From: Thalassotalea sp. HSM 43 | Lineage (GTDB): Bacteria; Pseudomonadota; Gammaproteobacteria; Enterobacterales; Alteromonadaceae | Direction of reading: 5' to 3' | Length of the DNA stretch: 64,000 bases | NCBI RefSeq assembly: GCF_004752005.1 | Contig: NZ_CP038493.1 | Span: 2,938,302-3,002,301 of the forward strand | Part shown: positions 45,190-57,701 of the stretch, in pieces | How positions within the stretch are numbered: position 1 is the first letter of the stretch | Layout of the letters: every line of letters begins with the position of its first letter | Program-made: the position numbers and the translations under genes | Notes under the pieces: generated by a model | What the model was told of the DNA's origin: nothing | What the model saw: only the letters and a program-made list of their open reading frames with translations | Databases searched by the model: none

Positions 45190-45310
45190 ACCGGTAATTA
45201 ATCGCTTTTAAATGGGCATTTGTCGCTTTTGTTATAAAAGATAACAAATTGTTGAAAATTAGTACTTGCCAAACAGAAGCCATAGCTGTTACAAATAACT
45301 GCATAGGGCA

Positions 45311-45357
45311 GCAAGTAATCGCTGAAACCACAAAACAGCGGCCTTGCATTATTTTTT
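45311..45357 (+). terminator. Terminator-like hairpin upstream of the Tyr leader peptide
   Basis: GCAAG and CGCTG (45311-45323) pair with CAGCG and CTTGC (45336-45347), with a 4/2 internal loop; seven T follow after ATTA. It lies before, not after, the leader peptide, so it may end upstream transcription. The GGGCAGCAAG at 45306-45315 could instead pair with CTTGCCTTGCCC at 45448-45459. Confidence 0.5.
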
Positions 45358-45375: not shown

Positions 45376-45432
45376 ATGACACTACTAGCAATTTCTTTTC
45401 GATATTATCGCTACACCTATCTTTATTACTAG
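45376..45432 (+). CDS. Tyrosine-rich leader peptide of the aroF-tyrA operon
   Basis: An 18-codon reading frame encodes MTLLAISFRYYRYTYLYY and stops at TAG, 95 nt before aroF. Six of its last nine residues are Tyr, and it also has one Phe. Such clustering just upstream of a Tyr-sensitive DAHP synthase and prephenate dehydrogenase is what a ribosome-stalling leader would look like. The start has only a weak ribosome-binding site (ATAAAAG). No intrinsic terminator follows; instead 45471-45502 is C-rich and nearly G-free (12 C, 1 G). The reading frame is a direct observation; the role is inferred from the amino acid match to the operon. Confidence 0.72.
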   Translation: MTLLAISFRYYRYTYLYY

Positions 45433-45527
45433 AAACATCTGGTAACCCTTGCCTTGCCCGGCAGATAAAAAACACACTCGCAACACCTAACAAACACACA
45501 TTAAAAAGAAACTGGGATCATTTTATT

Positions 45528-46610
45528 ATGACGACGCAAACGATTAAGCTTAGCGATATTCACGTTAACTCCGAAGAAGTACTGATTACACCTAATGCGC
45601 TAAAGGCGAAGTTACCGCTTACTGACGCGAACCGTGAATTCATTTTGCAAGCAAGACAAAACATCGCCAACATCATTCACAAGCAGGACCATCGCTTATT
45701 GGTTATCTCTGGTCCGTGTTCAGTGCACGACGTGGATGCGGCAAAAGAATACGGTCGCAAGTTAAAAGAATTGCATGACAAGTATCAAGACAGTTTGTAT
45801 ATCGTTATGCGTGTATATTTTGAGAAGCCAAGAACCACTGTCGGATGGAAAGGCCTGATTAACGATCCAAATATGGACGGCAGCTTTGATGTCAGCAATG
45901 GTCTTGAAACCGCTCGTGAATTGCTGATTTACTTAACCGAGCTTGGCTTGCCTTTGGCCACCGAAGCATTGGATCCAATTTCACCACAATATATGGCTGA
46001 GTTATTCAGTTGGTCGGCCATAGGGGCGCGAACCACAGAATCGCAAACGCATCGTGAAATGGCCAGTGGTTTGTCGATGCCAATCGGCTTTAAAAATGGT
46101 ACCAATGGCTCGTTAGATGTGGCAATTAATGCTATGCAATCAGCGGCTTCATCACACCGTTTTATGGGCATAAACCGCGAAGGTCAGGTGGCCTTAATTA
46201 AAACCTCGGGTAATCCAGATGGTCACGTAATTTTGCGTGGCGGTAAGCAACCAAATTACGATTCTGTTAATGTCTCGTTATGTGAGCAGCAATTGCAAAA
46301 GGCCAATTTACCTCAAGCTTTAGTGGTCGATTGCTCGCACGCTAATTCAAGCAAAGATCATAATCGCCAACCTTTGGTGGCGGATAATGTGGTTAATCAA
46401 ATTTGTGAAGGTAACCTTTCTATCATAGGCTTGATGTTGGAAAGTCACTTGCATGAAGGCAATCAGAGTACTAACCTGCCTAAGCACCAATTAAAATATG
46501 GTGTATCGGTAACCGATGCATGTATTGACTGGCAAACAACTGCAACCTTGATGGACAATACATACCATAAACTGCGCTCGGTATTACCTGAGCGAATCAG
46601 TGGCGAATAG
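45528..46610 (+). CDS. aroF: 3-deoxy-7-phosphoheptulonate synthase, Tyr-sensitive type
   Basis: First enzyme of the shikimate pathway, condensing phosphoenolpyruvate and erythrose 4-phosphate. The 360-residue type I alpha enzyme has LLVISGPCSVHD, VMRVYFEKPRTTVGWKGLINDP, SWSAIGARTTESQTHRE and VDCSHANSSKDHNRQ, all active-site or metal motifs. Assignment to the Tyr-sensitive isozyme rests on linkage to tyrA (20 nt downstream), as in E. coli. ATG 45528 has a distant GGGA. A Tyr-rich leader peptide precedes it; no TyrR box was recognised. Confidence 0.95.
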   Translation: MTTQTIKLSDIHVNSEEVLITPNALKAKLPLTDANREFILQARQNIANIIHKQDHRLLVISGPCSVHDVDAAKEYGRKLKELHDKYQDSLYIVMRVYFEKPRTTVGWKGLINDPNMDGSFDVSNGLETARELLIYLTELGLPLATEALDPISPQYMAELFSWSAIGARTTESQTHREMASGLSMPIGFKNGTNGSLDVAINAMQSAASSHRFMGINREGQVALIKTSGNPDGHVILRGGKQPNYDSVNVSLCEQQLQKANLPQALVVDCSHANSSKDHNRQPLVADNVVNQICEGNLSIIGLMLESHLHEGNQSTNLPKHQLKYGVSVTDACIDWQTTATLMDNTYHKLRSVLPERISGE

Positions 46611-46630: not shown

Positions 46631-47758
46631 ATGAAGGATTTTGAACAGCGACTAGGGCAATGTCGCGACGAAATAGACCAAATAGACAAGCAATTGCTTG
46701 AACTATTGGTCAAACGTCGTCAGGTGACCAAGCGTGTTGGCGAATTGAAAAGCCAAGTGGGTATGCCAATTTTTGCCCCAGAGCGTGAGCAACAGCTGTT
46801 AGACAGTTTAAAACAACGAGCCGACGCCAAAGCAATAAACCCGCAATTGGTTGAAGACGTATTTCGTCGCATTATGCGTGATTCTTATAAATCGCAAGAT
46901 GAACAAGGTTACCGCTGTGTAAATCCCGACATCAATAAGGTCGTCGTCATCGGTGGTGGCGGCCAATTAGGCTCGGTATTTGTTGATTTATTTACCCGCA
47001 CTGGCTATCCGGTGCACATTATTGAAAAACACCAATGGCAGCAGGCGAAAGCGATATTGATGGATGCCGACTTGGTTATCGTTGCGGTGCCAATCAACAT
47101 CACCGACGAAATCATTAAGCAATTATCTTATTTGCCAGAGCAATGTATTTTGGCGGATATAACCAGTATCAAAGAGCAGCCTTTGGCGGCCATGCTTGCG
47201 GTGCACAAAGGGCCTGTATTGGGCTTGCACCCGATGTTTGGTCCTGGTGTAACCGGTTTTATCAAGCAAACCATTATTATTTGTCATGGTCGTATGGCCG
47301 ATAAATACCAATGGCTATTGCAGCAGTTTCAGGTTTGGGGCGCGAATAATTATCAGGTAGAGGCCGCAGAGCATGACAATGCCATGGCCATGGTTCAGGT
47401 CATGCGACATTTCTCTACCGCCTGTTACGGTTATCATTTAATGCATGAGCAGGCAGACTTGGAAAAGTTGTTGGCGATGAGTTCACCAATCTATCGTTTG
47501 GAGCTTGCAATGGTAGGGCGCTTGTTTGCTCAAGATCCCCAGCTTTACGCTGATATCATATTTTCCAATGCAGATAATGTCGCCATGATGGAACGTTTTA
47601 TTGACCGTTTTCGTGATATGCTTGTTGATGTTAAAGCCAATGATAAACAAGGCTTTATTGAAAAGTTTAATCAAGTGGCGAATTGGTTTGGAGACGATGC
47701 CAAAGCGTTTCTTGAAGAGTCATCGATAATGTTAGATAAAGCAAAAGAGCGTGAATAA
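46631..47758 (+). CDS. tyrA: Bifunctional chorismate mutase / prephenate dehydrogenase
   Basis: Converts chorismate to prephenate and then to 4-hydroxyphenylpyruvate for tyrosine. The 375-residue protein has an N-terminal AroQ-type chorismate mutase (about 1-88, [33 protein letters not shown]) and a C-terminal prephenate dehydrogenase starting with the NAD-binding [19 protein letters not shown] (about 100-120), then [11 protein letters not shown] 46631, 20 nt after aroF. Its stop codon overlaps the thioredoxin-like gene by one base (TAATG), so the three genes form one operon. Confidence 0.97.
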
Positions 47759-55068: not shown

Positions 55069-56250
55069 CTATTTTTTCAATGCCTCTACGGGAACTTGCG
55101 TCGGTTTGATTTGTTCACTGGCATAACAACCCAGTACCTTGATGAAACGGGTCAGCTTGGTCAGCTTATTCAACACTTCTTGCATCGCTGCCGTTTGCAA
55201 ATTGGCTTCAACGTCAATATAGAACATCTCTTCCCAAGGTCGCCCTTGAATCGGTCTCGATTCAAGTTTGGTCATGTTGACGCCGTATTCTTTTAAGACA
55301 ATCAAACAGTCCACCAACGCCCCAGGATTTTGATCCGTTGCCATAATAAACGTGGTTTTCGCTGGGATTTGTTCTGCTACATCAACCGGCTTTCTCGCCA
55401 CTAAAATAAAACGGCTATGGTTTTCTTGTTGATTAGCAATGGATTTTACCAATGGCAATAAATCGTATAACTTACCACCTTCCTCAGAACCAATAACCGC
55501 AATGTTTTGGTCTTTGGTTTGTGCCACTTTTTGCATTGCTTGCGCACTGGAGTCGCAATACTCAATGCGAATGCCATCTTGCTTATGCAAGAAGTTGCTG
55601 CATTGTACCGCAGGTTGCGCATGGGCGTAGATAACCTTGATATCTTCCAGCTTACTGTTAACCGAGGTCAGCAAACAGTGATCGATTGGCTGTGATAGCT
55701 CGCCGACGATGGAAAGGTTGGTGTGTTGCAGTAAATCATATACCTCATTTATCGAACCCGAACTGGTATTTTCAATTGGCAATACACCGTAATCAACGTT
55801 ACCAGACTCCACTTGATTGAGGATTTCGGCAAAGCTGTCACAACCATATTCAGTGATTTCTTCAGCACGGCGAGAGAAATAACGATAGGATGCCAAATAA
55901 CTATACGAGCCTTTATCCCCTAGGAAAGCAACGCTAACTCTAGGTGTTTTAATATTTGGGTTTTTAAGTTGCTGCAAAAATGCTTGCTGGTTTAATACCG
56001 AGTCTTCAATAATGGTTTGGAAAACACTGGTCACATAGTGCGCATCAAGGCCTTTTTCTTTACCTATTTGAATGAGGCGAACTAATAGTTCTTGTTCGCG
56101 TTGTTGGTCACGCACTGGGCGCACCTGATGAGCCTTACTTTTCGCCACATTTAAGGTTAAAGCTCGGCGCTCGGCAAATAGCTCAAGCAGTTGCTGATCA
56201 AGATCGGTGATCTGTTCTCTAATTACGTTTAAATCCAAACTGTCGGTCAT
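55069..56250 (-). CDS. pheA: Bifunctional chorismate mutase / prephenate dehydratase
   Basis: Converts chorismate to prephenate and then to phenylpyruvate for phenylalanine. The 393-residue protein has an AroQ chorismate mutase (about 1-95, VIREQITDLDQQLLELFAERRALTLNVAKSKA), prephenate dehydratase (about 108-285, VAFLGDKGSYSYLA, IENTSSGSINEVYDLL) and a C-terminal ACT domain with LESRPIQGRPWEEMFYIDVE, where Phe binds for feedback inhibition. ATG 56250. A Phe leader peptide and attenuator precede it on the same strand. It faces aroF-tyrA, as in E. coli. Confidence 0.97.
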   Translation of the reverse strand: MTDSLDLNVIREQITDLDQQLLELFAERRALTLNVAKSKAHQVRPVRDQQREQELLVRLIQIGKEKGLDAHYVTSVFQTIIEDSVLNQQAFLQQLKNPNIKTPRVSVAFLGDKGSYSYLASYRYFSRRAEEITEYGCDSFAEILNQVESGNVDYGVLPIENTSSGSINEVYDLLQHTNLSIVGELSQPIDHCLLTSVNSKLEDIKVIYAHAQPAVQCSNFLHKQDGIRIEYCDSSAQAMQKVAQTKDQNIAVIGSEEGGKLYDLLPLVKSIANQQENHSRFILVARKPVDVAEQIPAKTTFIMATDQNPGALVDCLIVLKEYGVNMTKLESRPIQGRPWEEMFYIDVEANLQTAAMQEVLNKLTKLTRFIKVLGCYASEQIKPTQVPVEALKK

Positions 56251-56276: not shown

Positions 56277-56309
56277 AAAAACAAAGAAACCTCCGCTTGG
56301 GGAGGTTTC
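56277..56309 (-). terminator. pheA attenuator (regulated terminator)
   Basis: On the minus strand GAAACCTCC pairs with GGAGGTTTC around a 6-nt loop, followed by a T-rich run (56277-56285). Upstream RNA TTGGGGA (56331-56337) is fully complementary to TCCCCAA (56297-56303) in the terminator's left arm and loop, so an antiterminator excludes it. It is placed between pheL and pheA. Confidence 0.88.
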
Positions 56310-56339
56310 GTGAAAATTATTTACGAAAAATCCCCAACG

Positions 56340-56387
56340 TCAGTCGGTAAAAAAGATAAAAAAGAAGCGGCTGGTGAATTTATTCAT
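56340..56387 (-). CDS. pheL: pheA operon leader peptide
   Basis: A 15-residue peptide MNKFTSRFFFIFFTD with six Phe codons, five of them in a span of six. Followed by the antiterminator/terminator pair, it is a classic attenuation control peptide: ribosome stalling on Phe codons when charged tRNA-Phe is low lets the antiterminator form. The ATG at 56387 coincides with the transcription start predicted from TTGACA-17-TAGAGT, so translation may be leaderless or begin from another upstream promoter. No good ribosome-binding site is visible. Confidence 0.9.
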   Translation of the reverse strand: MNKFTSRFFFIFFTD

Positions 56388-56393
56388 GGTTTT

Positions 56394-57443: not shown

Positions 57444-57560
57444 GTTAAATCCGCGCAATGATAGTTATATCGTCAGCAAAAAGCCGGTGCTCCGGCAAGC
57501 TATTGACCGTTCGTGTTTATTTTATCGCCAATAGGTCTTAAGCAATAAACTATACAAAAT

Positions 57561-57596
57561 AAAAAGCCTCAGCCAAATATTTGGCCGAGGCTTTTT
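57561..57596 (+). terminator. Bidirectional terminator after the glutaredoxin gene
   Basis: A 17-bp stem, AAAAAGCCTC then GCCAAAT paired with ATTTGGC then GAGGCTTTTT, with one internal mismatch. It is 118 nt after the glutaredoxin stop. Confidence 0.85.
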
Positions 57597-57701
57597 ATTA
57601 GGATATGGATGGTTCTTTACGTCCGCTCAGTGCCATTCAGAGACGGTCACAATACATATTAAAAAATCACCAAAGAAGTACGCACATAATTAGAAAAGTT
57701 G

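Follow-up and report, generated by a model that had tools for sequence, protein, structure and literature searches.

The aroF-tyrA operon of Thalassotalea sp. HSM 43 is preceded by a short, Tyr-rich open reading frame (ORF). On balance, the comparisons of related sequences described below lead us to believe that this ORF encodes a true regulatory leader peptide, through which charged tRNA-Tyr is sensed and the expression of aroF-tyrA is set. Sensing through the Tyr codons is the part of this model that we consider very likely. A translational output on aroF in the genus of HSM 43 (a Thalassotalea-type clade, hereafter the genus) is a closer call that we would put a little under even. Among proteobacterial operons, those for Trp, Phe, His, Thr, and the branched-chain amino acids are well-described cases of leader-peptide control; aroF-tyrA serves as a standard case of control by TyrR. 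We refer to the whole stretch of DNA that was analyzed, 64,000 nucleotides in length, as the window, and positions are given on its forward strand unless stated otherwise.

The leader ORF (MTLLAISFRYYRYTYLYY, then a stop codon) runs from an ATG to a TAG at positions 45376 to 45432 and was defined by reading the sequence and by conservation. Its stop codon is separated by 95 nt from the aroF ATG at 45528. Re-reading the coordinates bore out the frame as it had been described in an initial sequence-only reading, with Tyr at six of the nine final codons. This density did not arise in any of 5,000 dinucleotide shuffles of the 392-nt region upstream of aroF, where the maximum was five Tyr per nine codons (three cases in 5,000). 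When both strands were checked, the leader was the only small ORF in the window with at least five Tyr per nine codons. Downstream are aroF, the proposed controlled gene, which encodes a 360-residue DAHP synthase (45528 to 46610; NCBIfam NF009395, 557 bits; TIGR00034, 511 bits), and tyrA, which encodes a chorismate mutase/prephenate dehydrogenase (46631 to 47758; NCBIfam NF008400, 559 bits).

A strong Shine-Dalgarno (SD) sequence is absent ahead of the leader ORF. Reading the sequence further upstream, we identified a probable promoter for a leader-aroF-tyrA transcript, TTGCCA-18 nt-TACAAA, at 45266 to 45295. It ends about 80 nt 5' of the leader start, and thus the leader probably lies inside the transcript. 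Congeners have the same layout by eye (TTGCCA or TTGCTA, followed by TACAAA, TACAAC, or TATTAA), and a strict consensus promoter scan of the window did not list the TTGCCA-18-TACAAA element. Between this element and the leader, a 5' untranslated stem (GCAAG..CGCTG with CAGCG..CTTGC) was read at 45311 to 45347. A shorter stem or palindrome, ACTC-NNNN-GAGT, is found just 3' of the predicted aroF promoter in six congeners (L008, L012, L013, and L015 to L017), while the stem in HSM 43 is larger and has T-rich sequence next to it. This 5'-terminal element could be a stabilizing stem, an early terminator, or an operator.

In order to compare relatives, we gathered AroF homologs from whole genomes and from GTDB contigs, extracted their upstream regions, and put these in one orientation. 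The leader is present in 16 of the 17 genomes of the genus, where it typically reads FRYYR-x-[TS]-[YH]-LY[YW]-stop, and in 64 of 95 distinct Colwelliaceae-type upstream regions. By our genus handles, a leader was found at least once in 14 of the 18 genera that have a close AroF. The Colwellia version is RYYYLPYF[SNI]-stop, and other genera have RYYYYLPFFC-stop, SYRYYRLYSFFSK followed by a stop, CFYYFLYFCC-stop, and similar peptides. The leaders of L021, L041, L127, and L131 depend on TTG starts and are less certain. The leader was absent from the aroF upstream regions examined from Vibrio, Shewanella, and several Colwellia. One member of the genus, L005 (genome G005), no longer has the leader or the TyrR operator before aroF but has kept the promoter-like element.

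Across these leaders the N-terminal codons and the flanking DNA diverge while the frame and a tandem Tyr pair stay. The pair is kept in nearly all leaders, usually with Arg before it, and in HSM 43 it forms the core codons CGA TAT TAT (Arg-Tyr-Tyr) at 45400 to 45408. This conservation and a modeled scan of stall positions (below) make these codons the proposed main stall site. In different genera the peptide has been cut down to this core with nothing kept beyond it (FRYYN-stop, FRYYH-stop, RYYY-stop, and SYRYYL-stop). The leader pattern occurs once in each genome tested, HSM 43 included, and, in the relatives searched, at aroF only. The sequence-only reading had proposed a comparison across Colwelliaceae and other Alteromonadales for conserved Tyr codons with synonymous or compensatory change, and the comparison returned both: TAT/TAC swaps within the conserved Tyr codons and compensatory changes in a hairpin described below. 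A conserved frame and Tyr pair, synonymous swaps, and specificity for aroF-tyrA are what a Tyr-tRNA sensor predicts. That reading had also held that the operon is controlled by stalling at Tyr codons, with emphasis on the terminal Tyr run. The first part stands on the tandem pair; the terminal codons, however, are not conserved as Tyr, since most relatives have Trp, Phe, Ser, or Cys there, and there is no classical terminator switch.

The last codons and the stop codon of the leader are covered by a hairpin, P2 (UUACUAGA-AACA-UCUGGUAA, 45426 to 45445), which was identified from z-scores against shuffles and from compensatory changes. Over 60 leaders P2 had a mean z of −2.24, compared to +0.5 for a window 60 nt to its 5' side and +0.4 for one 40 nt to its 3' side, and the stop codon was fully paired within it in 48 of the 60. 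Paired cells made up 96.1% of the P2 alignment versus 84.7% in shuffles, a level reached by 0 of 500 shuffles, and 13 cells were doubly changed versus 4.7 in shuffles. Slid versions of the pairing failed this covariation test. Within the genus, the change of the last codon from TAC to TGG (Tyr to Trp) is matched in the opposite arm, and two pairs vary as A-U 8, G-C 6, G-U 3 and as G-C 9, C-G 7, G-U 1. P2 thus overlaps the stop codon, as the 1:2 hairpin does in classical attenuators. A consensus fold of the Colwellia alignment by RNAalifold returned no structure because the linker misaligns; in Colwellia, P2 and a second hairpin are visible only in single-sequence folds. A second hairpin, in the linker between the leader stop codon and aroF of Colwellia-type leaders, was seen by eye in L134, L139, L141, L143, L034, and L169, with stem letters that vary between species and pairing that is kept.

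The 5' half of the leader is predicted to pair with the aroF ribosome-binding region. In HSM 43, minimum free energy folding placed UUUCUUUU against AAAAGAAA and CUAG against CUGG. The 5' strand of this pairing, P1, spans 45385 to 45399, and its 3' strand spans 45504 to 45515, reaching the first two bases of the aroF SD sequence GGGA (45514 to 45517). Most congeners have a different sequence, UUCCGAUA in the leader and UAUCGGAA in the ribosome-binding site (RBS). The expected number of pairs between the two regions exceeded that of shuffles in the genus (mean z of 1.24) but not in three other groups (mean z of −0.38, −0.06, and −0.07). With ten genus representatives, one per close cluster, Fisher p was 0.002 when the leader was shuffled and 0.0001 when the RBS was shuffled. 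Swapping partners within the genus did not weaken the pairing, so P1 is conserved and not covarying. The pairing is absent from two members of the genus, L007 and L009.

We then placed a modeled ribosome on these RNAs. In RNA cut off immediately 3' of the start codon, region −26 to −6 of aroF cost on average 5.8 kcal/mol to open, and 3.2 kcal/mol once a ribosome occupied the first Tyr codon. The drop averaged 2.6 kcal/mol and was greater than 1 kcal/mol in 14 of 16 cases; for HSM 43, a ribosome on the first Tyr codons brought the cost from 6.5 to 3.5 kcal/mol. With the ribosome moved to the stop codon, the mean cost stayed at 5.7 kcal/mol. In a scan of stall positions, the site was opened by ribosomes placed between about five codons upstream and four codons downstream of the first Tyr codon, but not by those close to the leader's end. 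The drop shrank to 0.7 and 0.4 kcal/mol when 30 and 60 nt of aroF were added, and it is clearest in nascent RNA. Since the clade and region −26 to −6 were picked after earlier tests and the species are not independent, these results give moderate support to a P1 output. In the earlier energy tests, region −16 to +4 showed little or no opening effect. Sequestration of the SD sequence as a universal mechanism was therefore rejected, as region −16 to +4 was without effect and the pairing equals that of shuffles outside the genus. Compared to a translational attenuator, the pairing is enriched in the genus and absent in other genera, modest in size, and not covarying.

From these results, we infer the following mechanism for the genus. 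When Tyr is plentiful, the ribosome would pass through the leader and exit at the stop codon buried in P2. The 5' half of the leader could then pair with the aroF ribosome-binding region and reduce translation of aroF, after which the transcript, left untranslated, may be terminated by Rho. Under Tyr shortage, the ribosome would stall at the tandem Tyr codons, cover the leader strand of P1, and free the aroF RBS.

A scan of the window found no intrinsic terminator on the forward strand between the leader and aroF, while the identical scan detected the terminator of pheA (55069 to 56250, reverse strand) and so provided a positive control. The pheA gene is preceded by a Phe leader, MNKFTSRFFFIFFTD followed by a stop codon in a hairpin, in a region at 56280 to 56391 (reverse strand), with a 9-bp, GC-rich terminator followed by a U-tract (56309 to 56286, reverse strand). 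This Phe leader scored 26.7 bits against an Rfam gathering score of 55, which marks it as diverged but structurally complete. No Rfam family (the Phe, Trp, His, Leu, and Thr leaders and others) matched the window at the gathering score, and the aroF leader matched none even at a relaxed threshold. One intergenic stretch (57496 to 57607) had subthreshold matches to the Thr_leader and MicC models. Measured against a textbook attenuator of the trp, phe, or his type, the aroF leader has the ORF, with predicted translation, and the hairpin over the stop codon, but the 3:4 terminator/antiterminator is missing. For this reason, we do not file it as a classical attenuator.

The linker without a terminator (45446 to 45513) is poor in G. 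Between the stop codon and the SD sequence, the genus has a C/G ratio of 3.1; the ratio is 2.1 in the other genera with a leader, compared to 1.3 in leaderless Colwellia and 0.67 in Vibrio and Shewanella. In none of the 64 leader regions is C equal to or lower than G, and the HSM 43 stretch is within the extreme 0.2% of window segments for C-over-G skew. These data, together with the missing terminator, fit an output through Rho, which would use the pyrimidine-rich, G-poor sequence lying between the Tyr codons and the aroF SD as its loading site. A stalled ribosome and P2 would mask this site, and normal translation would leave it naked, with termination before or within aroF. At least 78 nt separate the Tyr pair from the aroF ATG, and there are precedents in terminator-less leader peptides (PMC1262725) and in the coupling of Rho to a leader ORF at topAI (PMC12121999). 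However, G depletion would also simply keep the linker unstructured, and the roughly 60 nt after the stop codon in several genera are short for Rho. It is also not obvious that an upstream stalled ribosome would cover a site that is mostly downstream of it. The composition of the region fits a Rho-dependent attenuator of the tnaC/mgtL type, in which access to a C-rich, G-poor Rho site would depend on translation of the leader. We consider Rho-dependent attenuation possible, though rather unlikely, as the explanation; it is the main rival for the output step in the other genera.

Alternatively, P2 itself could be the regulated hairpin, either a weak terminator or a pause hairpin, held open by stalling at the last Tyr codons. 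No structure in the region is better supported than P2. Terminator-like scores occurred in 15 of the 64 regions, where 1.7 would be expected, and almost every one was P2 followed by a loose U-rich tail. Most of the genus, though, has no U-tract after P2, and the last Tyr codons are the ones that most relatives have replaced. Moreover, with a ribosome stalled at the tandem pair P2 could form, which would give the wrong sign. We therefore find a P2 switch improbable, and the tandem pair acting through P1 remains our preferred reading for the genus.

A further model would have the nascent peptide sense free tyrosine on the ribosome, as an arrest peptide of the TnaC type, instead of the codons sensing tRNA charging. 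Conservation of the core does extend beyond Tyr, with R before YY and LPYF in Colwellia. The Colwellia RYYYLPYF codons are also almost invariant, even at third positions (ATATTATTACCTCCCATACTTTA; alignment columns 21 to 48), which suggests a constraint at the RNA level; no pairing partner for these codons was found. Yet a biosynthetic operon whose Tyr synthesis rose upon Tyr-induced arrest would be regulated in the wrong direction, and what follows YY in the peptide differs freely from genus to genus and is missing from the truncated leaders. An arrest peptide is thus very unlikely. A chance or neutral ORF in a conserved noncoding region would agree with the lack of a leader in one genus member and several relatives, but this is already largely refuted by the shuffles, the conservation across 14 genera, and a Tyr pair that is kept while neighboring codons diverge.

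We searched for TyrR operators as tandem TGTAAAN6TTTACA boxes 23 bp apart and counted scores of at least 18 of 24. A tandem operator was found in 3 of 17 regions of the genus versus 71 of 78 other Colwelliaceae regions, and among the latter it accompanied 42 of 48 leader-bearing and 29 of 30 leaderless regions. The three exceptions in the genus (L015 to L017) have degraded box copies that overlap the TTGCCA element. The median tandem score was 14 in the genus, equal to the shuffled median, and 20 in other Colwelliaceae. The best tandem score of the HSM 43 aroF promoter was likewise 14 of 24, which does not place it in the TyrR regulon, while TyrR-type proteins are encoded in this genome and in all tested congeners. 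With the operators lost, the leader is the only Tyr-linked control that we found at aroF in the genus. The sequence-only reading had set the leader against E. coli aroF-tyrA, which uses TyrR instead. TyrR control is indeed known, but the opposition is incomplete, as the leader occurs together with TyrR boxes in most relatives, and the boxes were lost only in the genus.

The relatives therefore show three states: TyrR alone, TyrR with the leader, and the leader alone. We tentatively propose that Colwelliaceae first added a terminator-less Tyr leader to TyrR control, and that in the genus this leader then took over as the TyrR operator decayed and the RBS pairing was gained. If this is true, a protein repressor was naturally exchanged for ribosome stalling with the operon and signal unchanged. 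The three states form a natural series in which to study the replacement of a repressor by a ribosome-based sensor. A conserved Tyr-codon leader at aroF-tyrA also fills a gap in the list of leader-controlled amino acid operons. Since leaders without a terminator occur in multiple genera, the output step is open to comparison and to simple reporters.

In the literature that we searched, with subscription literature largely outside its coverage, we found no description of a Tyr leader in gammaproteobacteria. According to PMC8632094, Acholeplasma aroF has a Phe-type leader motif, and attenuation had at one time been hypothesized for E. coli aroF. A table entry for Shewanella aroF reads "attenuator sensing tyr-tRNA," citing Camakaris 1980 (PMC2659441); an RYY-type leader was not seen in the Shewanella aroF loci that we examined. 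TyrR controls aroF-tyrA in E. coli and most gammaproteobacteria (PMC5343134). It shares the operon and the signal with the leader but is a DNA-binding repressor, and its tandem operator has been lost in the genus.

Within the same window, the pheA Phe leader (Rfam RF01859) resembles the aroF leader in being a short peptide rich in the pathway residue, with Arg before the aromatic run and a stop codon in a hairpin. It differs in its GC-rich terminator and U-tract, which the aroF P2 and linker do not have. The AroR leader of Corynebacterium glutamicum (Neshat 2014, as reviewed) also precedes a DAHP synthase gene, aroF, and has Tyr among its Phe-Tyr-Phe codons. It is reported to respond to Phe and not Tyr, is described as transcription attenuation, and is an unrelated peptide (PMC11802643). 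At E. coli topAI, stalling in the short upstream ORF toiL frees the downstream RBS, with Rho secondary (PMC12121999), as we propose for aroF; toiL senses antibiotics instead of an amino acid and is unrelated in sequence. The LEU element and cys leader peptides of Actinobacteria are leaders without a terminator, and the regulatory codon run of LEU pairs with the Shine-Dalgarno box; codon mutations in LEU were reportedly without effect (PMC1262725). The LEU geometry is the one that we propose for the aroF leader, in a different phylum and with different amino acids.
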